Shown piece after piece: positions 787-32,038 of a stretch of DNA of 41,629 nt. The DNA is from Lachnospiraceae bacterium. Its GTDB lineage: Bacteria; Bacillota; Clostridia; Lachnospirales; Lachnospiraceae. The stretch spans positions 1 to 41,629 of the forward strand of contig JAFQCK010000135.1 in the NCBI GenBank assembly GCA_017416465.1. The letters are read 5' to 3'. Position numbers and translations under genes: made by a program. The notes under the pieces were generated by a model. It did not search any database. It saw only the letters and a program-made list of their open reading frames with translations, and had not been told where the DNA came from. Numbering within the stretch: position 1 is the stretch's first letter; each line of letters starts with the position of its first letter.

Positions 787-3171
787 TTATTGTCCAATTA
801 CTTCTTTTGCTTTCTCTATCAACTCATCAACTGTATATATCGGATACTTCCAATTTACATTATCCTGCCCACTCACAATAATTGTATTGTTTTCCTTGTC
901 AACCTCAAGCAAAAACTTAATACTTGCTGCAAGATTGTATTCTCTATCAAAACAATATCCATAAAGATCACCTGCCACATAAATATTTCCCTCTTTGTCT
1001 TCTCCAAGATATCTGTTTGCTGAATCCTTTATATTTTCAATTGTACTTATAAGTTTCTTTTCTTTAACATTATATATTTCCATAATATTATTTTCATAAG
1101 AAACAAATGCCACAGACCTATCCTTAGAATAAAGTACTGTACGTGCAAGTTTAGAATTAACTGCTCCTAAATCTTTTGCTTTTTCTTGTGGATTATCCTC
1201 CTCTTCAGATTCATAATAAGTTAAATCTTCATCATTTTCATATTCCACCTTATCCTCATTTTCTATAAAATAGTATAACACCACTCTGTTATCTTCATCC
1301 GAATATACAAGGAAGCCTTGTTTACATGTGAAAAATCCAGCTATTTTATCAATATTACAATCAAAAAAATATTCCATTTGATAACAGTTTTTTTCTTGTA
1401 TGTCTACACATATGTATGTTCCATCGCTATCAAAAACAAAACATTTTCCATCAACAATCTTTGTATAATTCACTATTCCTGTAGTTATTGTTTGCTCAAA
1501 TTCTACATTTCCAGTATCACAATTCATCATTATAAGCTTGTCATAGCTTGATGAAATAAGTTTTTTATCATCTAAATATTCTTCAATTCTCATATTATCG
1601 GCCATAGTATTTTCTAAATCCTTTTTCCACACAACATTATGCGTTGAAACATCTATTCCAATTATCTCACTACTAATTTCATCATCATTATTTAGACCTA
1701 AGCTTGCAAGTATATACAACTTTCCATTTTCATATAAAGCATTTTCAAGAACCAAATGTTCACTATTTACCTTAATTTCAATAGAAGTATCCAACAAATT
1801 TACAATCTTTATTTCTGAAGTCGCATAATTTGATTTCAAATAGACAAACCATTCATCTGTTATTACTGCATTGTCACAAACATTTCCTGACTCTGATACT
1901 GAATCTTCATATATACAAGAAAAAGATTCTGTCTCATATACCCATACTCTATCAAAACCGTTTATTACTATATAATTTCCTTCATTATCAGTGTTAACCC
2001 CTACAACATCAGGATTTTCCATTTCCCAAATAATACCACTTTCTTCAACATCATATAGCACTACTTTTTTTAATTCATTTATATAAACAATTTTATTATC
2101 TCCAACAAATTTTACGTCTTCTATTTTATATTCATCTCTTGTAATATATAAAAGTTTACCTGTGTCAATATCCCATACATATACTTTTCCAACAGTATCT
2201 AACGCCAAAAGTTTCTCCCTACTCTCATTAACTTTAACTTTAAGTATATTACTGTCTGTTTCAAACTGCCTTAAAGCTCTAATCGTATCTCCTATATCAT
2301 ATACTCCCAAGCTTTCTATCAAAGAATATTCTCCAAGTGAAGTATAAGGAAACTTCATACCATTATATTCAGTAAGACTTTGTACAGCTAATGAAACTGC
2401 TTCTTCTCTATCATCCTGTTGAAGATTATCCAAAGACTTCTCTGCAAGATTATGTGCCTGAGTATAAAGTAATTCTTCATTATGCTTTTTAATCTGCTCA
2501 CTCTGATTTTTAATTACCATAGCAGTAAACACGCTTGCTATACCTATAGTTAAACAAATAGCTGCCGAAATTATTGAAGCTGTAATAATTCTTTTCATAC
2601 GACGTTCTCTATGTCTTTGACGTAAATCATCATATTCTAAACCAAACATAGGAGCAATGACTCTAAGTAATTCGGTTTTTAGTAATTTACACATCTTCTT
2701 TTTATTTTCAGCTCTTATATCTGCTGCCAAAGGTTCTATTTCTTTACGTATTATATTATTTGTATCTTTTTCAACTACTTCTTCATACAACAATTCATCA
2801 GGAAACGATTCATGTGGCTCACCTTCAATAAGCACTGTAAGAATTTTATTTCTACCATGAAACTCAATAAACTTTTCTATTTCTTTACGACACCATACGG
2901 ACTCTTTAGTTCTTGGAGAACATATCACAATAAGATATTCAGAATCCTTAAGAGCTTGAATAATAGGATCTTCTAAATTATTAGTTATAGTTAATTCCTC
3001 TTTATCCCTAAATACTCTGTTTATTCTTGTTTTACTTGTTTTATTATCTTTTAAAACACTCTTTTGAAGCTTAAACTCTTCAAGATATTTATGTATCTTC
3101 TCTGCTACAAACTTATCCAAATCAGTGTGTCTATAGCTTATAAATGCATCATATTTATATTCTTTTTTCAT
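787..3171 (-). CDS. TIR domain protein with one transmembrane helix and C-terminal beta-propeller
   Basis: A 794-residue protein. Residues 6-125 form a TIR domain: YDAFISYRH opens it, RVFRDKEEL corresponds to the BB-loop area, and SVWCRKEIEKF contains the Glu (E97) at the position of the catalytic glutamate of NAD-cleaving TIR domains such as SARM1. A basic stretch (RHRERRMKR, about 187-194) precedes a hydrophobic helix at about 195-219, predicting an N-in/C-out topology. A short helical linker follows, then about 500 residues of repeated VYVWDIDTGKLLYI-like blades resembling WD40/PQQ propellers. TIR domains in bacteria often produce nucleotide signals or deplete NAD, so a membrane receptor coupling an outside sensor to a cytosolic TIR is a reasonable inference. 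The start has a poor ribosome site (GGAGG lies 26 bases upstream). It sits alone between purH and clpB. Confidence 0.75.
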   Translation of the reverse strand: MKKEYKYDAFISYRHTDLDKFVAEKIHKYLEEFKLQKSVLKDNKTSKTRINRVFRDKEELTITNNLEDPIIQALKDSEYLIVICSPRTKESVWCRKEIEKFIEFHGRNKILTVLIEGEPHESFPDELLYEEVVEKDTNNIIRKEIEPLAADIRAENKKKMCKLLKTELLRVIAPMFGLEYDDLRQRHRERRMKRIITASIISAAICLTIGIASVFTAMVIKNQSEQIKKHNEELLYTQAHNLAEKSLDNLQQDDREEAVSLAVQSLTEYNGMKFPYTSLGEYSLIESLGVYDIGDTIRALRQFETDSNILKVKVNESREKLLALDTVGKVYVWDIDTGKLLYITRDEYKIEDVKFVGDNKIVYINELKKVVLYDVEESGIIWEMENPDVVGVNTDNEGNYIVINGFDRVWVYETESFSCIYEDSVSESGNVCDNAVITDEWFVYLKSNYATSEIKIVNLLDTSIEIKVNSEHLVLENALYENGKLYILASLGLNNDDEISSEIIGIDVSTHNVVWKKDLENTMADNMRIEEYLDDKKLISSSYDKLIMMNCDTGNVEFEQTITTGIVNYTKIVDGKCFVFDSDGTYICVDIQEKNCYQMEYFFDCNIDKIAGFFTCKQGFLVYSDEDNRVVLYYFIENEDKVEYENDEDLTYYESEEEDNPQEKAKDLGAVNSKLARTVLYSKDRSVAFVSYENNIMEIYNVKEKKLISTIENIKDSANRYLGEDKEGNIYVAGDLYGYCFDREYNLAASIKFLLEVDKENNTIIVSGQDNVNWKYPIYTVDELIEKAKEVIGQ

Positions 3172-11996: not shown

Positions 11997-12040
11997 TATA
12001 CCAACTAATTTATAATTTAAAATTAGTTGGTATAGTTTTT
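11997..12040 (+). terminator. Rho-independent terminator of argH
   Basis: Perfect 15-bp arms TATACCAACTAATTT (11997-12011) and AAATTAGTTGGTATA (12020-12034), followed by GTTTTTT. Confidence 0.85.
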
Positions 12041-12079
12041 TAATGAATTTTTCACTATAAATTCGACACAATATTAAAA

Positions 12080-12165
12080 CTATATTTCATTCACTTCTAT
12101 ACCACACTTTTTAAACACTTCCATCTCATTCAGATTCTCCTGTGGCATAACTTCTAACCTTTCAT
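12080..12165 (-). pseudogene. Possible remnant of a small gene
   Basis: On the minus strand AAGGAG is followed by ATG AAA GGT TAG. One frame over, an open stretch reads RLEVMPQENLNEMEVF then KKCGIEVNEI and a stop at 12080. The composition looks protein-like, and a single base change would join the start to this frame. I do not recognise the product, and it could be chance. The remaining space between argH and the MscS gene otherwise holds only the two terminators. Confidence 0.2.
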
Positions 12166-12203
12166 ATATAATTCTCCTTGAATCATTAAATTTTATTATT
12201 AAC

Positions 12204-12237
12204 AAAGGCTATGACATCCTTAAATATCATAGCCTTT
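12204..12237 (-). terminator. Terminator hairpin downstream of the MscS gene
   Basis: Arms AAAGGCTATGA (12204-12214) and TCATAGCCTTT (12227-12237) are perfect 11-bp inverted repeats. They are AT-rich on both sides with no long T-run, so strength is moderate and it may be bidirectional. Confidence 0.6.
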
Positions 12238-12254
12238 AATTTCAAATCACTATT

Positions 12255-13079
12255 TTACTTTTCAGTATGCACAACAATCTGATTGAATGGAATTTCAATT
12301 CCTGCTGCATCTAATCTTCCTTTAATTAATTCTGTTAATTCGAATTTAACAGTCCAATAATTTTCTGTTTTAGCCCACACTCTAAGTCCTATTGTCACCT
12401 GACTTGCATCAAGACTTGACACAAATGTAAATATCTCTTCATTCTGAAGTACCATCTCATGTGTCTTAGCACAATCTTCGATAATTCTTTTTGCTTCCGA
12501 AACATTTGCATCATAGCTCACTCCGATTGCAAAATCTACTCTTCGTTTATCAAATGCAGTAACATTTGTTAAACTGGCATTAGATAATGAACCATTAGGA
12601 ATCACATTCATTCTGTTATCTCCTGTAACTAATGTTGTATAAAATAAATCAATCTTTGTTACAGTTCCTTCCATTCCTCCTGCAGTTGTAACAATATAAT
12701 CTCCAACCTTAAAAGGCTTTAACATTAATATCAAAACACCACCGGCAAAATTAGATAAACTTCCTTGAAGTGCAAGACCTATAGCCAAACTTGCTGATGT
12801 CAAAACCGCCAAAAATGATGTTGTCTTAACTCCAACAGTTTCCAACACTATTATCAACAATACTGCATATGCAAGAGCTCTTATTAACGATACCAAAAAC
12901 TTACTAACACTAACTTCAAGTTTTGTCTTTTCAAAAAATTTTTTACAAATCTTAATTACAAAATTTATAATAAATTTTCCTATAAATAAAATTAAAAGTG
13001 CTAATAAAATTTTTAATCCAAAATTAATTATTGATGGTAAATATCCCTTTAGTTTATCAAGAATCACATCAAAATTCAT
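12255..13079 (-). CDS. mscS: Small-conductance mechanosensitive channel, MscS family
   Basis: 274 residues with three N-terminal membrane helices (about 15-40, 62-82, 88-110) and a cytosolic beta/alpha-beta vestibule, the size and plan of E. coli MscS. The pore helix region GLALQGSLSNFAGGVLILML carries the alternating Gly/Ala pattern of TM3, followed by KPFKVGDYI. MscS opens under membrane tension to release solutes during hypo-osmotic shock. The ATG follows a GAAAGGG site. The branching-enzyme-like gene ends 40 bases upstream on the same strand, so the two are probably cotranscribed; a terminator hairpin follows at 12204. Confidence 0.9.
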   Translation of the reverse strand: MNFDVILDKLKGYLPSIINFGLKILLALLILFIGKFIINFVIKICKKFFEKTKLEVSVSKFLVSLIRALAYAVLLIIVLETVGVKTTSFLAVLTSASLAIGLALQGSLSNFAGGVLILMLKPFKVGDYIVTTAGGMEGTVTKIDLFYTTLVTGDNRMNVIPNGSLSNASLTNVTAFDKRRVDFAIGVSYDANVSEAKRIIEDCAKTHEMVLQNEEIFTFVSSLDASQVTIGLRVWAKTENYWTVKFELTELIKGRLDAAGIEIPFNQIVVHTEK

Positions 13080-13119
13080 TTAATTTTTCCCTTTCTATTA
13101 TTGTTTAATTAATAGATTT

Positions 13120-15702
13120 TTATTTTTTATCTTCTGTATTCTCAGACTCAACCTTTTTAGTAGCTATCTTCTTTGGCTCTGTCTTTTTTGTAGCTATCTT
13201 TTTTGGTTCTGCTTTTTTTGTTTCTATCTTTTTAGCCTCTTCCTTTTTTGTAGCTATTTTCTTTGGTTCTGCCTTCTTTGTTTCTATCTTTTTAGCTTCT
13301 TCCTTTTTTGTAGCTATTTTTTTTGGTTCCACTTTCTTTGTTTCTATCTTTTTAGCTTCTTCTTTTTTTGTAGCTATTTTTTTAGGCTCTTCTTTTTTTG
13401 CTTCTTCTTTAGTTTCAGATTTTTTTTCAACTACTTTTTTAGTTTCTTCTTTCTTTACTTCTGTTTTAGTCTTTTTTGCATTATCCTTAGCTGTTTTATT
13501 ATCAACTAATTTCTTATCTGCCTTAGAATACTTGAATACTGAAACACTAAGTGCAGGAACATTTACTCTGATAGATTCTTCTCTGCCATCACACTCATCT
13601 GTCTTTGACTGTTTTAATCGTGAATTTACAAAACCTTTTCCACCAAATGCTACTGCATCAGAACTAAACACCTCTTTATATTTACCTCTCTTTGGTACAC
13701 CAATCTTGTAATCAGTTCTGTCAACATTTTCAAAATTACATACCACAAGTAACATTTCTTCTTCATCTGCACCTTTTCTTACAAATGTTAAAATACATTC
13801 ATTTGCAGAAATGTTGTTTATCCATTCAAATCCATCCACATCATTATCAAGCTCGTAAAGTGCTATTTCCTGTCTGTATAATTTATTGAGAGCTTTAACC
13901 ATGGAATTAATATTATTATGTTTATCAACGTCTAATAAATCAAAATCTAATTTAGAATCACTTGTCCACTCAGAATAAACTCCCATATCCTGACCTGCAA
14001 AAAGCATCTTCTTGCCAGGATGAACAAAGCTATATGCTAATCCCAGACGCAAATTGCTAAATTTAACATCTTCTGTATCCCCACTCATTCTGCTAATTAA
14101 TGCTGACTTACCATTAATAAAATCAGATGCCGGGAAGCCTAAAACAAAATTATCACTATACTGATAAATCATACTTAATGACAAATCATTATATCCTGCA
14201 CCTCTTAAATATGCCGGAGTAGCCAAATAATCAATTAAATCTTTTCTCCATTCATGATTACATTTCAAATCAAACCCAAGACATTCTTCACTGACTTCAC
14301 CTGTTATATTTGGATAACCTGTCACATCATCTGCTATTGTAATAATTCCTTTTCGCTTTTTATGAAGAATCGAATTAAAATGCTTAATAAATTCAATAGC
14401 TTCAAGGTTAGTTGCTCCACCATAAATATTAGATTCCCATTCACCAGGATTTCTATTATAGTCATGATATAACATTTCTGCCAAATTAACTATGCTTAGA
14501 CCGTCAAAATGATATTTATCTATCCACATAAATGCATTAGCTATAAGGAAACTAGTAACCTCAGGTCTTGCATAATTAAACATATGAGCTCCATTTCTTG
14601 GATTAAGAGCTCTTTTTGGATTCTCCGATTCATACACACATGAGCCATCAAAATATCCCATACCTGTTTCATCTGTACCAAATAATACAGGAACCCAATC
14701 GAGTATCACTCCCACACCTTTTCCATGAAGATAATCAACAAAATACATTAAATCTTCACAATTTCCAAATCTTTCAGTCGGTGCGTAGAAATAATTAGAT
14801 ATATATCCAAGTGAATCATCATCAATATATTCTGTAATAGGCATTAACTCCACATGACTATATCCCATCTTAACTACATAATCAGCAACCTTTTTAGCAA
14901 TTGTTTTGTATGTATCATCTTCATTTTCCATAAAATCCGATACAGACATCTGATATACTGAAAATGGAAGCTTATTAACATCCAACTTATCCCTTGATGA
15001 AATCCATTTACTATCACTCCATGTAAATCCATCCAAATCTGTAATAATTGTAGCATCACCTGGTTTCGCTTCTAATTTAAATGAATAAGGATCAGCTTTT
15101 AGGAGATTCTCTCCGCCTTTTTTCTTAATTTCATATTTATACATAGAGTTTTCAGAAATCTCAGGTACAAATATCTCAAAAATGCCTGTATTTTCAATTT
15201 TAGACATCTGATGTATTCTTCCGTCCCAATTATTGAAGTCACCAACTACACTTACTCTAACTGCACCAGGAGCCCAAACACAGAATCTTATTCCATCAAC
15301 ACCTGAAACTACACTCTTATGCGCTCCCATAAATTCATAGGCATTATACGCTATACCGGCATTATATTTTTTAAGTTCTTTATAATCAATGAATGAATAG
15401 AATGAATATGCATCATACTTTTCTTCAACATATTCACCTCTTGTAATCACTAATTTATAATTAATCATTTTCGACGCATCAATAATCACTGCATAAAATC
15501 CGGCATCATCCATCTTAAACATCTCATAAAGCTTACCTGAATACTTTACCTCTACTTTATCTGCATCAGGAACAAATGCTTGAATCAACACCCCATCTTC
15601 AATTATATGTTGTCCTAATACATCTTTTGGATTATCAATATCTGTATATTCTATTCCTTCAATAAGTGGCCAATTCATCATTCCATATAGTTTATTATAC
15701 AT
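13120..15702 (-). CDS. Catalytically degenerate GlgB-like protein (GH13_9) with lysine-rich repeat tail
   Basis: About 860 residues. Residues 135-225 form a CBM48-like N-domain (RFCVWAPGAVRVSVVGDFNN), 250-640 a GH13 barrel clearly homologous to branching enzyme GlgB, then an all-beta C-domain. All catalytic positions are changed (numbered from M1 at 15708): the region I His after DWVP is Leu342; region II reads DGLSIVNLAEM, so the Arg and nucleophile Asp are Ser405 and Val407; region III reads ITIADDVTGYP, so the acid/base Glu is Asp460; region IV reads NFVLGFPASDF, so the His-Asp pair is Ala527-Ser528. The fold appears preserved and the frame is open, so this is a pseudoenzyme, perhaps glucan-binding. 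The tail (from about 755) is Lys/Glu/Ala-rich with eight 10-residue repeats. The ATG at 15702 is seven bases from GGAGG, so it is preferred to the ATG at 15708. Confidence 0.8.
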   Translation of the reverse strand: MYNKLYGMMNWPLIEGIEYTDIDNPKDVLGQHIIEDGVLIQAFVPDADKVEVKYSGKLYEMFKMDDAGFYAVIIDASKMINYKLVITRGEYVEEKYDAYSFYSFIDYKELKKYNAGIAYNAYEFMGAHKSVVSGVDGIRFCVWAPGAVRVSVVGDFNNWDGRIHQMSKIENTGIFEIFVPEISENSMYKYEIKKKGGENLLKADPYSFKLEAKPGDATIITDLDGFTWSDSKWISSRDKLDVNKLPFSVYQMSVSDFMENEDDTYKTIAKKVADYVVKMGYSHVELMPITEYIDDDSLGYISNYFYAPTERFGNCEDLMYFVDYLHGKGVGVILDWVPVLFGTDETGMGYFDGSCVYESENPKRALNPRNGAHMFNYARPEVTSFLIANAFMWIDKYHFDGLSIVNLAEMLYHDYNRNPGEWESNIYGGATNLEAIEFIKHFNSILHKKRKGIITIADDVTGYPNITGEVSEECLGFDLKCNHEWRKDLIDYLATPAYLRGAGYNDLSLSMIYQYSDNFVLGFPASDFINGKSALISRMSGDTEDVKFSNLRLGLAYSFVHPGKKMLFAGQDMGVYSEWTSDSKLDFDLLDVDKHNNINSMVKALNKLYRQEIALYELDNDVDGFEWINNISANECILTFVRKGADEEEMLLVVCNFENVDRTDYKIGVPKRGKYKEVFSSDAVAFGGKGFVNSRLKQSKTDECDGREESIRVNVPALSVSVFKYSKADKKLVDNKTAKDNAKKTKTEVKKEETKKVVEKKSETKEEAKKEEPKKIATKKEEAKKIETKKVEPKKIATKKEEAKKIETKKAEPKKIATKKEEAKKIETKKAEPKKIATKKTEPKKIATKKVESENTEDKK
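13150..13389 (-). repeat. Eight tandem 30-bp (paired as 60-bp) coding repeats
   Basis: The region encodes eight consecutive 10-residue units alternating EPKKIATKKE and EAKKIETKKV/A, with two EPKKIATKK-type units at the end. It sits at the C-terminus of the GlgB-like protein. Such units tend to vary in copy number by slippage. The product is strongly basic and probably extended or helical. Confidence 0.9.
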
Positions 15703-15734
15703 CGACATACCTCCGTAAAATTAAATTATTTTAA

Positions 15735-15756
15735 GTATAGAACACGTTCACTATAC
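15735..15756. promoter_or_regulatory. Imperfect palindrome in the divergent promoter region
   Basis: GTATAGAAC and GTTCACTATAC flank an AC centre: a 9-bp inverted repeat with a two-base insert. It lies about 30 bases upstream of the GlgB-like gene start and overlaps possible -10 boxes (TATAGT, TATACT) on the minus strand. It may be an operator; no regulator is known. Confidence 0.3.
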
Positions 15757-15838
15757 ATCTTATTAATTATCTCACAGTTAGGTATTTTTTTCAATGAAAA
15801 ATAAATATCTCTTTATTCTTTACTCATAATAATTATTA

Positions 15839-15847
15839 TGATAGAAT
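15839..15847 (+). promoter_or_regulatory. Extended -10 promoter of the YihY gene
   Basis: TGATAGAAT, an extended -10, lies 40 bases before the TTG start. No good -35 is seen. Confidence 0.45.
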
Positions 15848-15886
15848 GTAAATTCAAATTTAAATATATAAAATTGGAGGCAGACC

Positions 15887-16768
15887 TTGATTTTCGAAAT
15901 ATTTTTATTATTAAAAGGTTTTACCAACAGATTAAAAAAAGATAATGTTAGTGCTTTTGCTTCACAGGCTGCTTTTTTCTTTATTATGTCAATATTTCCA
16001 TTTTTTTCTGTTTTATTAACATTAATAAAATATCTGCCAATAAGCAAAGATTTAGTTATGCAAACAGTTATAGATATAATTCCAAAACCTTTTGAATTAA
16101 TTGCAGAAAGTATATTAAACGAATTATTTATACAATCATATAGTACTGCAGTTCTTTCTTTTTCAGTAATACTTGCTATCTGGTCATCTTCAAAAGCGGT
16201 TCTGGCTATTATTCATGGACTAAACATTGTCTACCATGTTGATGATAAAAGAAACTATTTTTTACTAAGACTTATTTCTGCAGTATATACTGTTATATTT
16301 ATTTCTGCAGTTGTTGTTAGTTTACTTTTTATTGTATTTGGTAATCAGATTTATTTTGCATTACAAAAAGATTTTCCTGTTATGGCAAATATAATATCAA
16401 TATTCATCAAACAAAAACTTCTAATCTCTTTTTGTATACTTACAATATTTTTCATATTACTATATAGATTAGTAGGCTTAAAAGATGACAAAACAACTAT
16501 ATTTTTTCCTGGTGCAATATTCTCTGCAATAAGCTGGATTGGATTATCATATATATTCTCTGTATATATTGATAAATATAGTAATTTTTCTTACACTTAC
16601 GGAAGTCTTGCAACACTTATTTTATTTATGTTTTGGATATATTTTTGTATGTATCTTCTATTTATTGGAGCAGAAATTAATTCATACTTTAAAGTATATT
16701 TTGAATCAGTAAAAAAATATAGGGATGAGAAAAAGAATTATAAAAAATCACTTAATGAAGATAAATAA
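15887..16768 (+). CDS. YihY/BrkB family inner-membrane protein
   Basis: 293 residues with six hydrophobic segments. The N-terminal FTNRLKKDNVSAFASQAAFFFIMSIFPF motif (split here: an amphipathic entry helix, then a first membrane helix) and the later LATLILFMFWIYFCMYLLFIGAEIN segment are typical of YihY/BrkB. The family was once mislabelled ribonuclease BN; its role is unsettled and a transport or envelope function is suspected. The start is TTG, six bases after GGAGG, with no better ATG nearby. The gene is divergent from the GlgB-like gene and convergent with argS; two palindromic elements fill the gap downstream. Confidence 0.85.
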   Translation: MIFEIFLLLKGFTNRLKKDNVSAFASQAAFFFIMSIFPFFSVLLTLIKYLPISKDLVMQTVIDIIPKPFELIAESILNELFIQSYSTAVLSFSVILAIWSSSKAVLAIIHGLNIVYHVDDKRNYFLLRLISAVYTVIFISAVVVSLLFIVFGNQIYFALQKDFPVMANIISIFIKQKLLISFCILTIFFILLYRLVGLKDDKTTIFFPGAIFSAISWIGLSYIFSVYIDKYSNFSYTYGSLATLILFMFWIYFCMYLLFIGAEINSYFKVYFESVKKYRDEKKNYKKSLNEDK

Positions 16769-19047: not shown

Positions 19048-20280
19048 TTAAATGGAAATTCCATTTAATTTTAATAATTCTCTTGCAGTATCAACAGAAT
19101 CAACACCTTCTTTATTTTTAACAGGTGCAAACTCCTTACTTCTTTCTACTTCATACACAAGACAATCATCAACCATATTAATCATATCTAAAATTAAAGT
19201 TTCAAATTTAAATCCATTTGGTTTTTCAGGAGAAACAAAATTACCATTCTCATCTATACATGGAATCTTTTTTTCAGCCATATGATTAACTAAACTATTA
19301 TTATTAATATTAACTAAATCTTCAACTTTAAACATATAGTTAAGTATTACTCCATAATTATATAGAGGGTCTCCACTTGTATCTATAGCATCTCTCATAT
19401 CATCTGTAAGTTCATAGTATTCCACTATTCCCGGTTTGCCGTTCTTCCTACACATTACTCCAACTCTCTCATCAGGACTGGCTTTTTTTACGACCTTTGC
19501 TGAAGCCGGACAACCTGATAATACTGTTGCACCTACAAATACAGGATCAGCTATTCTTTGTAAAACATTATCTACTGAAAATACATTTAGCCATTCAATT
19601 CCCATCATATTGATATTCTTAAGCAATCCCGAACTTATCATTGACGAGAACCAGCCTCCATTACCATTAGGAGATAGACATAATTTGTGTTTGTCTTCCA
19701 TTAAAAATTTCCCATCAAAACTGATGCTTGGAGCCATCTTCTGAACAAAAAAGTATACAAATTTTTTATCATAGCCGAAATAATTATGCTCTTTAAAAAA
19801 ATTACGTGTATCCGCATCATTTTTTTCGCTTGTCATAATGTACAAAGGTACATAACAACCTGATATTTCTACAACATCTAAAAGATTTCTTATAATTCTT
19901 TCAAATATATACACTTCTTTATTAACACCAATATTGAACATTCCCTTTGGCTTATCAAATCCAAGTCTTGTTCCCTGTCCGCCTGCAAGTAATACAGCTC
20001 CTACTTTGAACCTTTTAAGAGCCTCAATTCCTGCATTTTTAAACTCTTCAATTCTGCTATTAATCTCATCAAGCTTCATCGCTCCTAAAGGCTCATATAC
20101 ATCCTCTGAATCATTATGTACTGAATCATTATTTTTAAAAATATCAATATAGCTAAAATCCAATTGATTCAACTGCTCTTCAAAAACTTTCTTATCTTCA
20201 GCAGATAATTCATCATAATACTTTAATAAATGGTCTTGTTCATATTTTTTAATATTATCCAAAACTTCTTGTTTAATCAT
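19048..20280 (-). CDS. UDP-sugar pyrophosphorylase, UDPGP type 1 family
   Basis: 410 residues resembling eukaryotic UDP-N-acetylglucosamine pyrophosphorylase. The nucleotide-binding loop is VLLAGGQGTRLGFDKPKGMF (about 96-115). Further markers are NGNGGWFSSMISSGLL and KKASPDERVGVMCRKNGKPG. The enzyme would make UDP-GlcNAc or another UDP-sugar from UTP and a sugar-1-phosphate. Substrate preference cannot be fixed by eye. The ATG at 20280 lies 14 bases after GGAAGG; between them a four-codon ORF (ATG GTA GAA CTA TGA) ends in an ATGA overlap with the start, suggesting coupled translation. It is followed by argS. Confidence 0.8.
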   Translation of the reverse strand: MIKQEVLDNIKKYEQDHLLKYYDELSAEDKKVFEEQLNQLDFSYIDIFKNNDSVHNDSEDVYEPLGAMKLDEINSRIEEFKNAGIEALKRFKVGAVLLAGGQGTRLGFDKPKGMFNIGVNKEVYIFERIIRNLLDVVEISGCYVPLYIMTSEKNDADTRNFFKEHNYFGYDKKFVYFFVQKMAPSISFDGKFLMEDKHKLCLSPNGNGGWFSSMISSGLLKNINMMGIEWLNVFSVDNVLQRIADPVFVGATVLSGCPASAKVVKKASPDERVGVMCRKNGKPGIVEYYELTDDMRDAIDTSGDPLYNYGVILNYMFKVEDLVNINNNSLVNHMAEKKIPCIDENGNFVSPEKPNGFKFETLILDMINMVDDCLVYEVERSKEFAPVKNKEGVDSVDTARELLKLNGISI

Positions 20281-25464: not shown

Positions 25465-27999
25465 TTATAACCAACTAATAAATCTGTACACAATTTTTTT
25501 ATACCATTTTATATCTTTATAAATATTGTATGATATTTCATTAATTATAGAAGAAACCAGACTTTCTTCCTCTTTATTTATCTTAATTACGGAGAATTTA
25601 TTTTTCTCAATAATCCTTACAACCTGCATAATTTTTTCTAAACTCACTACATTTTTTTCAGCTAATTTATGTGCAAATTCCTCATAAGATCTTGAATCTG
25701 ATTGCTTTATCCCAATATACTTTGCACATTTATTAAGATAAATATATTTTTTATTAACATCCCTTTGTCTCTTTCTTATATATCGGACAATAAATCCTAA
25801 AATAATATATATGCAAACAAAAGCAATAACCAAATATACAACAATTTTAACAAATGAAATCGTAACATTTTTAACATTATCGATTCCTTCACTTGTTATA
25901 ATATTACCCGATAACAGATTTTGAATAAATCCATTTTCTGATTCTTCATCCTCTTCTTTATCCGGTGTATAATCTCCCGGAGTAACTTCAACAGGAAGCC
26001 AACCAAAACCATCTATATATATTTCAACCCAAGCATGAGCCATACTATCATCCAACTCATATTCACATAGACCATAAGGATATTCCCACTCATTAAAATC
26101 ATATTTCTTCAACCAATGTGAAAGTTTTGACTCTTCAAATGAAAGTGTTTTTTCCGGCACATCAAATTCACTTTCCTGCAATACATAACCGCCACAATAT
26201 CTTGCCGGAATACCTAGATATCTGAAAATAAGAGTAGCTGAAGAAGCAAAATATACACAATATCCTTTTTTTGATTCAGAAAGAAAATAATTAACAAATT
26301 CTTTATTCTTTGGTGTTTTTCCAGGGATTAAAGTATATTCATAATCTTTATCAAATATCTCACAAACTTTTTTTTCAATTTCTTCTGTATCTTTATTCAA
26401 CTCATAATTATTACAAAATTCTTCAATAGATTTTATATTTTCTTTAGGCACATCCAGATATATTTTTTTTACATAATCGCTATATTTTTCTTCCATTTCA
26501 ATATAATTATTTATTTCAGAATTATTTTTTAAAATTTCCTTCTTATCCTGAATCTCTTTTTTTAGTGTTTCTAACAATGGGAGCGAATAAATATTGTTAA
26601 TAGGTAAATATTCTATTATCATAGAATAATTCTTTTCCAAACCTTTTGTATATTCATCATCATATTTTTTTGTATATTCTTCTTCTCCCGGAACAATTGA
26701 ATAATATGGAAAATACGGAAACATTGAATTAGCACCTATATTAGATACTACAATATATTTGTTTTCTTCTAAAAAAGATAATTCATAATAATCATTTAAT
26801 TTAACCGGAAGTTCCATTACCTCTTCAGCTTTTAAACCATAATCTTTTAAGGCTACTTTATCATTATCACTTTCACTCAACACTTCCCAATATTCATTAT
26901 TATAATAAGTCCCATTATAGGCTTTTAGGTATAAAGAACTTTCAGATACACTAATATTAGTTTGAACCAGCATATCCGTATTATAATCAAGAGCTACATA
27001 TTTATTCTGTCCAAGCCTGCTTCTTCCTACACCGCCTGCACCACCATTACGACCAATCATGCCCCAGAATCCTAATATAGCAGCTTGTTCCGCATATTCT
27101 CTTGTGTCCTCTTTAAGATATTCAAATCCAAGTTTTACATCCGATTTTTTTTGAGGATAAATTAGGGATACAATCATTGAAAAGCATAAAACAATAACAG
27201 CAATCGAAAGAACAAAAGAAATATTATATCTTCCATCAGATACATAATTATACGTAATATTATTATTCTTCTGCTTTTTTAAATATCCATTTTTTTTCTT
27301 AGTTTCCATTTTATAATGCTCTGAACATCTCATAAAATGTAATGAAATTAATCCAATAAAATATAAAGAAAAATATAAAACATTTATTTCTCTTTCAAAA
27401 TACATTCCTGCCTGAATAATTGGAAATGTAAATAATAATACCACAATAAAACCTTTAGATTCAGTAATTGCAATATTAAACATTAAAATAACGGCAAATA
27501 ATATAAAACACAAACACAAGGTTACCGAAGATTTTTCACTATAACCATATATATCGTATCCTCTTTCGATAGGTAATGAAAAATCTCTTTCCAGAAATTC
27601 CATTATCTTATTACAAATATGAGCAAATCCGCCTTTTATCATTTGTTTATTTTGCATTATCAGAAAAATATAACACGAAAAAACAACTACATATCCAATC
27701 ATTTTTACTACATTATTGTAATACAAAAATGCGGTCATTAAAGAAAATAATAGTGTAGCTATAGCTAGCACAAACATATTTGCTTTTATATCAAATGGTG
27801 ATACAAAACATCCGAGAGTTCCAAAACACACAAAAAAATTAATAACTGTATTTGCTAAAAAATTGTTTATATCATTTTTCTTTGAATTATTAGAAACACA
27901 ATGAATAACAAGTCCAGTTCTTTTTTTATGTTCATATTCTTTTAATTCTTTTTTCTTTTTTAAATACTCATAAGGGTTTAGTATTGTTTTTATTGACAT
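25465..27999 (-). CDS. Membrane transglutaminase-like protein (TgpA/DUF3488 type)
   Basis: About 844 residues. The N-terminal half has two clusters of membrane helices (about 48-225 and one near 260-280); the middle is extracytoplasmic. A papain-like transglutaminase core carries Cys581 in KKGYCVYFASS and His655 in MAHAWVEIYIDGFGW. The usual third residue Asp is Glu671 in PVEVTPG. A single helix (VVYLVIAFVCIYIILGF) and a cytosolic tail end the protein. Such proteins are encoded next to MoxR and DUF58 genes in many bacteria; their substrate is unknown. The ATG at 27999 overlaps the DUF58 gene by 10 bases, so the annotation starting at 28047 in another frame of that gene is not favoured. Confidence 0.85.
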   Translation of the reverse strand: MSIKTILNPYEYLKKKKELKEYEHKKRTGLVIHCVSNNSKKNDINNFLANTVINFFVCFGTLGCFVSPFDIKANMFVLAIATLLFSLMTAFLYYNNVVKMIGYVVVFSCYIFLIMQNKQMIKGGFAHICNKIMEFLERDFSLPIERGYDIYGYSEKSSVTLCLCFILFAVILMFNIAITESKGFIVVLLFTFPIIQAGMYFEREINVLYFSLYFIGLISLHFMRCSEHYKMETKKKNGYLKKQKNNNITYNYVSDGRYNISFVLSIAVIVLCFSMIVSLIYPQKKSDVKLGFEYLKEDTREYAEQAAILGFWGMIGRNGGAGGVGRSRLGQNKYVALDYNTDMLVQTNISVSESSLYLKAYNGTYYNNEYWEVLSESDNDKVALKDYGLKAEEVMELPVKLNDYYELSFLEENKYIVVSNIGANSMFPYFPYYSIVPGEEEYTKKYDDEYTKGLEKNYSMIIEYLPINNIYSLPLLETLKKEIQDKKEILKNNSEINNYIEMEEKYSDYVKKIYLDVPKENIKSIEEFCNNYELNKDTEEIEKKVCEIFDKDYEYTLIPGKTPKNKEFVNYFLSESKKGYCVYFASSATLIFRYLGIPARYCGGYVLQESEFDVPEKTLSFEESKLSHWLKKYDFNEWEYPYGLCEYELDDSMAHAWVEIYIDGFGWLPVEVTPGDYTPDKEEDEESENGFIQNLLSGNIITSEGIDNVKNVTISFVKIVVYLVIAFVCIYIILGFIVRYIRKRQRDVNKKYIYLNKCAKYIGIKQSDSRSYEEFAHKLAEKNVVSLEKIMQVVRIIEKNKFSVIKINKEEESLVSSIINEISYNIYKDIKWYKKIVYRFISWL

Positions 28000-29057
28000 A
28001 CAAGCACCACCCTTTCCGAACCAACATCTATCTTTTCTCCTTGGCATTTTTTATCACTACCATCCAATAAATAAAGTAATGTAGCCTTCACCTCCGAGTT
28101 AATTGCATCAAACAATTCATATCCTGCACCATTATATTCTAATGATTTTTCATAATAAATACTTTTTATTACACTTATCAAATCATCATCATTATTTATC
28201 TCGTAATAATTTATCTCATAATTCATAACAGATGCCCATGCAACAGAAAATTTTCTTCTTTGATTAATCAAATCATTACCTATTGAAAACAATACTTCTA
28301 TTATCTCATCAAATATCAAAGGATTTTCCTTATCTATATATGTTTCCACAAATAATATTACATCTTCTGAAAATGGCAAACTATATTCTTTAACTTGCAT
28401 TTCTTCTTTTTTTGAACTTAACTTCCAATGAATGTTTGATAATCTGTCGCCTGGTATATAATCTCTTATTTGTGATATTTGTGAAACATCATCACCTTTA
28501 GACAACTGAAGTTCATCTTCTTCAGAGTTTCCCTTTGGAGAAAGATTAAATTTTTCATATTCCTGTTTTTTTGAAGGCATTATATAAAATTCTGCTTTTT
28601 CAAAACACTTAATATTTCTTTTAAACATTCCCAAAAAATCATAAATCTCATACTCATTTATCTTGACTTCTAATCTTCCACAATATATTCCACTGACTGT
28701 CATATATACTTCATTCTTTTTTTTTGGCAATGCAGTCATTATCAATGAATATTTATCTTCATTTTCATAAAATGTATTTTTAATTATTGAATTAATTTTA
28801 ACAGTCTCAATAGGTATAAAAGTATTGTTTTGTACAGCAAAACATACATCAACAGGTATCTCCTTACCTACTGATATTTTTTCAATACTTACAGTTATTT
28901 TTATTCTATCTGCTATATATTTCATTAAAAAATATGATACTATGGGCATAATAATCATTAATATCATCATAATTAATAATAAATAATGATGGTAAAAAAT
29001 CAACGCTCCACCTAACAGTATCAAAAGACTAATATAATTTATCTTTTTATTCCACAT
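27990..29057 (-). CDS. DUF58 domain membrane protein
   Basis: 355 residues. Two hydrophobic helices at about 7-40 anchor the protein. The conserved DUF58 block is visible: IRDYIPGDRLSNIHWKLSSK (about 199-218) followed by MQVKEYSLPFSEDVILFVE, which opens a vWA-like domain. DUF58 proteins are partners of MoxR ATPases. It lies 14 bases after moxR and overlaps the transglutaminase gene by 10 bases, so the three form one operon. Confidence 0.85.
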   Translation of the reverse strand: MWNKKINYISLLILLGGALIFYHHYLLLIMMILMIIMPIVSYFLMKYIADRIKITVSIEKISVGKEIPVDVCFAVQNNTFIPIETVKINSIIKNTFYENEDKYSLIMTALPKKKNEVYMTVSGIYCGRLEVKINEYEIYDFLGMFKRNIKCFEKAEFYIMPSKKQEYEKFNLSPKGNSEEDELQLSKGDDVSQISQIRDYIPGDRLSNIHWKLSSKKEEMQVKEYSLPFSEDVILFVETYIDKENPLIFDEIIEVLFSIGNDLINQRRKFSVAWASVMNYEINYYEINNDDDLISVIKSIYYEKSLEYNGAGYELFDAINSEVKATLLYLLDGSDKKCQGEKIDVGSERVVLVCQ

Positions 29058-30199: not shown

Positions 30200-32038
30200 T
30201 TAATATTCTACTACACAATCAGGTATATGCTTTTTGAAATCATCTATCTGTGCCGGCCTTATCTCTGTATTCTTTAGACAAAGATAGGTTAATTTCTTAA
30301 GCGGATATATATCATGTAAATCTGTAACCCTTGTTCCCCAAAGGTCAAGATACTTAAGATTCTCACAAGTTGAAATAGGTGACAAATCTCCTACTAATGT
30401 ATTTCTAAGTGCAAGGTACTCTAACTTTGAACAATTTGATAAAGGTCCTAAATCATCAAGCATATTATTATTGAGAACAAGCTTCTTAAGTTCGTAACAC
30501 TCCTTTAAAACCTGAATATTACCAATATCCATATGCTCAACATTCAAATCTGTTACTGTATCTTCAAATCTTACCTTACCTAATTGTAGCTTAACAAGTT
30601 TCTTAAATGTCGATTTGAAGAAACCAAGTTTTTTCTCTTGTGGCTTTGACTGTGTTTGTTCTTCCTGTACAGAAGCTTCTACAATCTTAACCTCTTCATT
30701 TTTAGTTTCTGACTTAGCTTCTTTTTTTACTTCAGCTTTAGTCTCTTTTTTAGCCTCTACCTTTTTCTCTACCTTTGGTTCAACCTTTGGTTCCTGTTTT
30801 TGTACCGGAACTTCCTCTACTTTTGCCGGCACTACCTGCTTAACCGGCTCAACTTTTGGTTCTTCTTTCTTCTCTGGTTCTTTTGGTTGTACCTGCTCAT
30901 TTTCTAAAACAGATTTACCAATGCTTACAACAATCGGTTTTGCTTCAAATTCTTCCGAACCCGATTCAACTACATTAGATTGCTCTTGTATCTCAGTAAC
31001 TGTATCTCCATTTTTAGTAATCACAAGTTTCTGATTACCATCAGCATCTGTCTCAATTACACTATAATATAATGCATCAATCAAATCATCAACTGTCTGA
31101 TATCTGTCCTGAGCTCTTAATGAAAGACCTTTCATTATCGCAAATTCTGTTTCTGGCCAAATACTTGAATCATACTTAGATAATGGCTCTACGTTATCAT
31201 CAATAATTCTCTCTAAAGCTTCTTGTGGCGTAACACCTGTAATCATTCTATACATAGTTGCACAAAGTGCATATACATCTGTCCATGGACCCTGATTACC
31301 CTTAGCTCTATATTGTTCCTCAGGAGCATAACCTCTCTTAAGTACAACTGTGATACTCTTATTATCTTCAGTATCAAAAACTCTGGCTGCACCGAAATCA
31401 GTAAGCTTAACCTGTTTATTCTTTGTTATCATTATATTATCAGGACTTATATCTCTATGAATTATACCAACTTCATGAATTTTGTTCATTGACTCCAAAA
31501 CCGGTTTCATAAGTTTAGTAACTTCATTGTGTCTCATTCTACCACCTACTTTTGTAAGGTAGTCTTTAAGTGAAACACCATTGATAAATTCCATAATTAT
31601 GTATGCAGTTTCATTCTCATAAAAGAAGTCTTTAACTGTAACAATACCCTGTAAATCCGAAAACATTGAAAGATTACGTGCCTCTCTCAAATATTTTTCA
31701 AGACCTTCCTTATACAAATCTCTGGCTTCGCCGGAAAAAATAGAAATTGTATTACCTTGTGTGGTATCACGAGTAGCTAATTCTGCCGGAAAATATTCCT
31801 TAATCGCAACAGGCAAATCAGTTTCCATATTAAATCCTATATATGTAATTCCAAATCCACCTTCTCCTATTACCTTTCCTACCAAATACTTACCATTTAA
31901 TTTAGTAAATGGTCTTAAACTACGTGGTGATGATGAATATGTTGCCTTATCAAATCCACAAAGAGGACAAGGTAAATCCGGCTCATCTAATACAGCCATA
32001 CATCCCGGACACAAATATTCCGGATTAATTTTACTCAT
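30200..32038 (-). CDS. Zinc-ribbon Ser/Thr protein kinase with C-terminal leucine-rich repeats
   Basis: 612 residues. A zinc ribbon with Cys10, Cys13, Cys24, Cys27 starts the protein. A complete Hanks-type kinase follows: Gly loop GKVIGEGGFG (54-63), Lys80 in VAIKEYFP, HRDISPDN (194-201), DFG (214-216) and APEEQY. A Lys/Glu/Pro/Val-rich linker (about 375-485) is followed by leucine-rich repeats from about 500 to the end (LKKLVLNNN, LEYLALRNT, LKYLDLWGT, LTYLCLKNT). No transmembrane helix or PASTA domain is seen, so unlike PrkC it appears cytosolic. It presumably phosphorylates partners chosen by the LRR. The PP2C gene lies 111 bases upstream. The ATG follows GGGAGG. Confidence 0.9.
   Translation of the reverse strand: MSKINPEYLCPGCMAVLDEPDLPCPLCGFDKATYSSSPRSLRPFTKLNGKYLVGKVIGEGGFGITYIGFNMETDLPVAIKEYFPAELATRDTTQGNTISIFSGEARDLYKEGLEKYLREARNLSMFSDLQGIVTVKDFFYENETAYIIMEFINGVSLKDYLTKVGGRMRHNEVTKLMKPVLESMNKIHEVGIIHRDISPDNIMITKNKQVKLTDFGAARVFDTEDNKSITVVLKRGYAPEEQYRAKGNQGPWTDVYALCATMYRMITGVTPQEALERIIDDNVEPLSKYDSSIWPETEFAIMKGLSLRAQDRYQTVDDLIDALYYSVIETDADGNQKLVITKNGDTVTEIQEQSNVVESGSEEFEAKPIVVSIGKSVLENEQVQPKEPEKKEEPKVEPVKQVVPAKVEEVPVQKQEPKVEPKVEKKVEAKKETKAEVKKEAKSETKNEEVKIVEASVQEEQTQSKPQEKKLGFFKSTFKKLVKLQLGKVRFEDTVTDLNVEHMDIGNIQVLKECYELKKLVLNNNMLDDLGPLSNCSKLEYLALRNTLVGDLSPISTCENLKYLDLWGTRVTDLHDIYPLKKLTYLCLKNTEIRPAQIDDFKKHIPDCVVEY

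Follow-up and report, generated by a model that had tools for sequence, protein, structure and literature searches.

The window, the whole stretch of 41,629 nucleotides that was analysed, is contig JAFQCK010000135.1 from a Lachnospiraceae genome. One of its open reading frames encodes a protein with the full GlgB architecture (GlgB_N, CBM48, GH13 barrel and alpha-amylase C domain) followed by a Lys-rich tail, and a gene for an MscS-type channel lies immediately downstream. The features of this locus, with the evidence for each, are as follows.

13120..15708, minus strand: GlgB pseudoenzyme gene, 862 aa (domain search, GlgB models, alignment)
15406..15663, minus strand: GlgB_N domain, aa 16-101 (domain search)
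15082..15330, minus strand: CBM48, aa 127-209 (domain search and alignment)
13849..14961, minus strand: GH13 barrel with degenerate active site, about aa 250-620 (alignment, conservation, predicted model)
14683..14685, minus strand: Leu342, replacing the region I His (H340) (alignment)
14488..14496, minus strand: Ser405 and Val407, replacing the region II Arg (R403) and nucleophile Asp (D405) (alignment)
14329..14331, minus strand: Asp460, replacing the region III acid/base Glu (alignment)
14125..14130, minus strand: Ala527-Ser528, replacing the region IV His-Asp (H525-D526) (alignment)
13528..13824, minus strand: C-terminal all-beta domain, aa 629-727 (domain search and alignment)
13123..13524, minus strand: Lys/Glu/Ala-rich low-complexity tail, aa 729-862 (composition)
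12255..13079, minus strand: MscS-type mechanosensitive channel gene, 40 bases downstream of the GlgB gene on the same strand

Four other genes of the window, all on the minus strand, were also noted. A UTP-glucose-1-phosphate uridylyltransferase (UDPGP) family gene (19048-20280) adjoins argS less than 4 kb from the pseudo-GlgB gene and had no NCBIfam match. The gene at 787-3171 encodes an N-terminal TIR domain (TIR_2, ThsB_TIR) with weak beta-propeller-like matches behind it, a possible signalling or defence protein. An 860-aa protein with a transglutaminase core is encoded at 25465-28047, and a Ser/Thr protein kinase domain with leucine-rich repeats at 30200-32038.

The initial annotation had claimed that the GlgB domain set is kept without frameshift, and the domain search and the open frame bore this out. 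The window protein scored above the cut-off in two of the six GlgB profile models, its best sequence and fold matches were branching enzymes, and its predicted model adopts the branching-enzyme fold. GH13_9 is the subfamily name for the bacterial GlgB branching enzyme. An isoamylase 2 chain appeared among the sequence matches only at E 0.0001, and assignment as ISA2 proper (isoamylase type, GH13_11) was ruled out, the closest relatives being branching enzymes. Alignment showed that six of the seven conserved GH13 residues are replaced. The catalytic triad Asp-Glu-Asp reads V407, D460 and S528, so that the nucleophile, the acid/base and the transition-state Asp are all gone, and the supporting residues H340, R403 and H525 read L342, S405 and A527; the supporting D335 and Y300 are still present as D337 and Y302. 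These are the substitutions that had been noted in regions I to IV, and a shift in the alignment concealing intact residues was ruled out. The protein thus resembles GlgB as known from the E. coli, Cyanothece and Vibrio structures in domain order, profile, predicted fold and CBM48 and C-domain Trp, but differs in lacking the three catalytic and three supporting residues and in carrying a long Lys-rich tail, which is common to many intact Lachnospiraceae orthologues.

We investigated how widely such degenerate (dead) copies occur. Among 180 aligned rows, same-gene duplicates included, 124 read DHRDEHD; the remainder showed 37 different combinations, and one was a fragment that gave no data. Trees were built with the motif columns removed, by quick searches with SH-aLRT support only, and several dead rows formed long branches. 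The quick tree of 158 rows needed 10 changes, nine of them forced by starred branches, the mixture-model tree of 92 rows needed 11 (seven forced), and a 34-row tree needed eight (seven forced). In the 34-row tree, whose 14 dead and 20 intact rows were chosen after the earlier trees had been seen, forcing the dead rows into one group cost 494 log units (p-AU 0.0003). A single dead clade of one origin was therefore rejected by the trees and the AU test. Since the outgroup is intact and the regain of several residues is implausible, we read the changes as losses, and the same orthologous gene appears to have been inactivated repeatedly in Lachnospiraceae, at least about seven times. The dead form is thus conserved within the window genus, where nine of nine copies are dead, but does not make up one clade overall, where loss is recurrent.

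A match was found in 194 of the 200 genomes of the family draw, and the best-ranked long GlgB was read in 103 of them. This census covers the best-ranked copies and is incomplete, and the dead rows are not a random sample. The draw contained 22 genomes with a dead copy, 19 of which lacked the nucleophile or the acid/base; the remaining copies (L153, L157 and L179) retain both and could retain activity. Outside the family, all 21 GlgB read were intact, these being only the top matches to the query from the genomes sampled.

The gene was present in all nine genomes of the window genus, and the nucleophile was absent in all nine; one copy (L064) reaches the end of its stretch, one member (L065) retains the acid/base Glu and another (L008) the third Asp. 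We computed dN/dS by the Nei-Gojobori method (NG86) for 20 pairs, 12 of which were set aside as saturated, and more distant pairs, with dS of about 2 or more or undefined, were not used. Among the dead pairs, the five with the least saturation (dS up to 1.25) gave values of 0.021-0.060 (L005/L009, 0.041; L044/L047, 0.021; L044/L046, 0.040; L047/L051, 0.023; L013/L036, 0.060), compared with 0.023-0.032 for the three intact pairs whose dS was below 1 (L011/L012, 0.023; L012/L016, 0.032; L028/L029, 0.027). The only pair that includes the window protein (WIN/L004) is absent from these five and gave 0.081 at a saturated dS of 2.6. The low values in the dead pairs indicate that the gene is not decaying, and the earlier proposal of a selected pseudoenzyme rather than a decaying gene gained support from this purifying selection and from the dead copies in all congeners.

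To see what selection keeps, we took the 144 columns whose invariance across 112 intact long GlgB was at least 98% and scored their retention in the nine-row window clade. Retention was 100% in GlgB_N (5 columns), 99% in CBM48 (23) and 100% in the C domain (9), 94% in the first linker (2) and 78% in the second (6), and 69% in the barrel outside the motifs (63) and 43% in the active-site motifs (36). Mean pairwise identity in the window clade was 61% for the barrel, 73% for CBM48 and 75% for the C domain, as against 78-82%, 75-80% and 51-74%, respectively, in four intact clades. The ratio of barrel to CBM48 plus C-domain divergence had a median of 1.33 in 12 dead pairs and 0.685 in 38 intact pairs (Mann-Whitney p=3e-6), although not all pairs are independent, four of the 12 dead ones sharing the window's origin. 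Two of the 12 (0.72 and 0.87) look enzyme-like, with no shift in constraint, and in the Butyrivibrio and DQRDEHN dead clades the barrel is better kept than the C domain, opposite to the window clade.

The E. coli GlgB has twelve surface glucan sites, as listed in Table 1 of PMC10254366. By alignment, Trp161 in CBM48 of the window protein corresponds to E. coli W159 of glucan site IV, and Trp629 in the C domain to W628 of site VI. The site IV Trp was kept in 45 of 46 dead rows and the site VI Trp in all 46, a few rows being one gene duplicated in two collections. Both were also kept in all 124 intact rows, so they may be structural. The site I Trp (W586) is lost in the window clade and kept in 120 of the 124 intact rows. 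Of the remaining E. coli surface sites, most are missing from intact Lachnospiraceae copies too. The parts retained are consistent with the glucan-binding scaffold or regulator that the initial annotation had suggested.

The tail of the window protein contains 51 K+R and 29 D+E in 134 aa, a net charge of +22. A tail of at least 40 aa with at least 20% K+R was found in 32 of 40 dead and 62 of 108 intact rows after de-duplication, and tails were longer in dead rows (median 96 versus 48.5, p=0.0035). Butyrivibrio tails are mixed E/K with a net charge of +2 to +9, and in some dead copies the tail is short or missing. The Lys-rich tail as an invention of the pseudoenzyme was rejected by its presence in those 62 intact rows.

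Another GlgB with all seven residues, judged by residues and not by activity, was found in each of the 29 dead-copy genomes searched. Most of these partner copies lack GlgB_N, and three (L180-L182) align from the N-terminus; in the 103 family genomes, the long GlgB of one (L169) also lacks most of GlgB_N. Dead copies occurred in 22 of the 88 family genomes with two or more GlgB matches and in none of the 15 with one (one-sided Fisher p=0.020, kinship ignored). The genome of the window carries three GlgB genes, each on a different contig, as well as GlgA, GlgP and GlgC-like genes.

We consider it likely, with some reserve, that the window protein is a selected GlgB pseudoenzyme, most probably a non-catalytic, glucan-binding scaffold or subunit of glycogen. 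For its glucan binding, partner and cellular role we infer the following course. Branching by the long GlgB would have become dispensable where the genome has another GlgB for the reaction, and the glucan-binding shell would have been kept, leaving a protein that stays on glycogen in a scaffold or subunit role without catalysis. Glucan chains would be held by CBM48 and the C domain, and the charged tail may contact another partner: the active GlgB, the nucleoid, the membrane or the neighbouring MscS channel. A broader version, which we advance only tentatively, is that the long Lachnospiraceae GlgB has had two functions from the start, one enzymatic and one structural in the glycogen body, where its basic tail would anchor glycogen to the nucleoid, the membrane or MscS. 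The enzyme half would then have died wherever a second GlgB took over, and the structural half would have stayed, giving convergent glycogen-organising pseudoenzymes.

A regulatory subunit, in which the dead copy forms a heteromer with intact GlgB (or with GlgA or GlgP) and tunes its activity or chain-length preference, glucan binding being secondary, is a somewhat doubtful alternative. The intact-residue GlgB in every dead-copy genome searched agrees with it, and plant ISA2 acting with ISA1 offers a precedent, described in part of PMC12510319. However, the three GlgB genes of the window's own genome lie on different contigs, and the type of the partner GlgB differs between genomes.

The neighbourhood of long-type GlgB genes was compared at de-duplicated loci with at least 400 bases downstream for MscS and at least 450 upstream for DUF1015. 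MscS lay directly downstream at 21 of 36 dead and 70 of 102 intact loci, DUF1015 directly upstream at 18 of 38 dead and 43 of 106 intact loci (e.g. L010, L026 and L043), and one or both were present at 30 of 33 dead and 81 of 100 intact loci with both flanks readable. MscS followed none of 26 partner copies and none of 21 GlgB outside the family (flank length unfiltered in the latter). At one of the intact loci (L010), a BacA-family gene (12284-13207) stands in place of the missing MscS. Because these neighbours are common to dead and intact loci, and MscS is absent from the controls, the dead genes appear to represent the same orthologue, still at its old locus, and the link to MscS predates the loss. 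MscS as the cause of catalytic loss is unsupported, its rates after intact and dead copies being similar. The MscS gene is a probable operon partner of the window GlgB gene, judging from its position; a promoter and terminator scan of 12000-16000 gave 24 promoter-like sites versus 22.7 in shuffled sequence.

It is unlikely, though more arguable than a new enzyme, that the gene is kept for its link to MscS, with the protein coupling glycogen to the channel in a module for osmotic stress. Besides the contrast with partner and outside-family loci, such a coupling is favoured by the persistence of MscS in the window genus at loci where no DUF1015 neighbour was found. Against this, MscS is absent after 15 of the 36 dead copies, the adjacency may be an old gene order (DUF1015-GlgB-MscS) and not a contact, and no GlgB-MscS link was found in the open-access literature among the matches listed. 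Given the dead copies without MscS and those with a short or missing tail, neither feature represents a universal function.

A barrel retooled for another reaction with different catalytic residues is improbable. Positions 337 and 460 are acidic in all nine members of the window clade, and 24 columns are invariant in this clade yet rare in intact copies, as a new enzyme might require. However, most positions that were once catalytic differ among the clade members (L/Q/G/A/S at H340, S/N/K at R403, V/A at D405, A/E/N/S at H525 and seven residues, one still Asp, at D526), which speaks against a conserved new active site, and dead copies of other origins carry other residues there. A decaying gene or an assembly artefact is scarcely credible: many relatives are metagenome assemblies, but the low dN/dS rules out a pseudogene, frames are open in many genomes, and degenerate copies turn up as well in records whose titles name a strain (Butyrivibrio hungatei XBD2006 and NK4A153, Butyrivibrio sp. 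M55, Anaerosacchariphilus polymeriproducens MCWD5 and Lachnospiraceae bacterium RM5).

The scaffold or subunit that we favour has its closest counterpart in plant ISA2, which, according to part of PMC12510319, belongs to GH13, has lost the catalytic residues and is maintained by selection alongside a paralogue that is active. The window protein likewise lost catalytic residues under selection beside a paralogue intact by residues, but it is a bacterial GlgB and not an isoamylase. According to a passage of the same source, ISA1 has a CBM48 that lacks the site for glucan binding; in the window protein, by contrast, CBM48 is the part that is kept best. The glgB2 gene of Butyrivibrio hungatei MB2003 (824 aa) is listed as a branching enzyme in a section of PMC5716241. 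By species, size and domains, it probably corresponds to the dead copies of XBD2006 and NK4A153. In the storage-granule protein PhaM, the basic tail is the DNA-binding part. PhaM of Ralstonia eutropha tethers the PHB granule to the nucleoid, as described in part of PMC3556143; the polymer differs, and the likeness would be one of idea only, a storage-granule protein that also binds DNA; the features seen in the window protein are a Lys-rich tail and a retained CBM48. Neither a dead bacterial GlgB nor a GlgB-MscS operon was found in the open-access literature, judged by title and start of abstract among the matches listed, and the terms sought were absent from the searched part of the review PMC11046441 and from PMC9960391.

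Plant ISA2 represents a single ancient event. In the present case, catalysis appears to have been lost from one bacterial gene at least about seven times. Repeated loss under selection at an old locus suggests a second function of the enzyme, with GlgB_N, CBM48 and the C domain as the parts that would serve it. Since family models score dead genes as branching enzymes, one of them probably so in print, GlgB counts may overstate the branching capacity of gut and rumen metagenomes. The organisation of bacterial glycogen by non-catalytic proteins, as proposed for plant starch, becomes testable.
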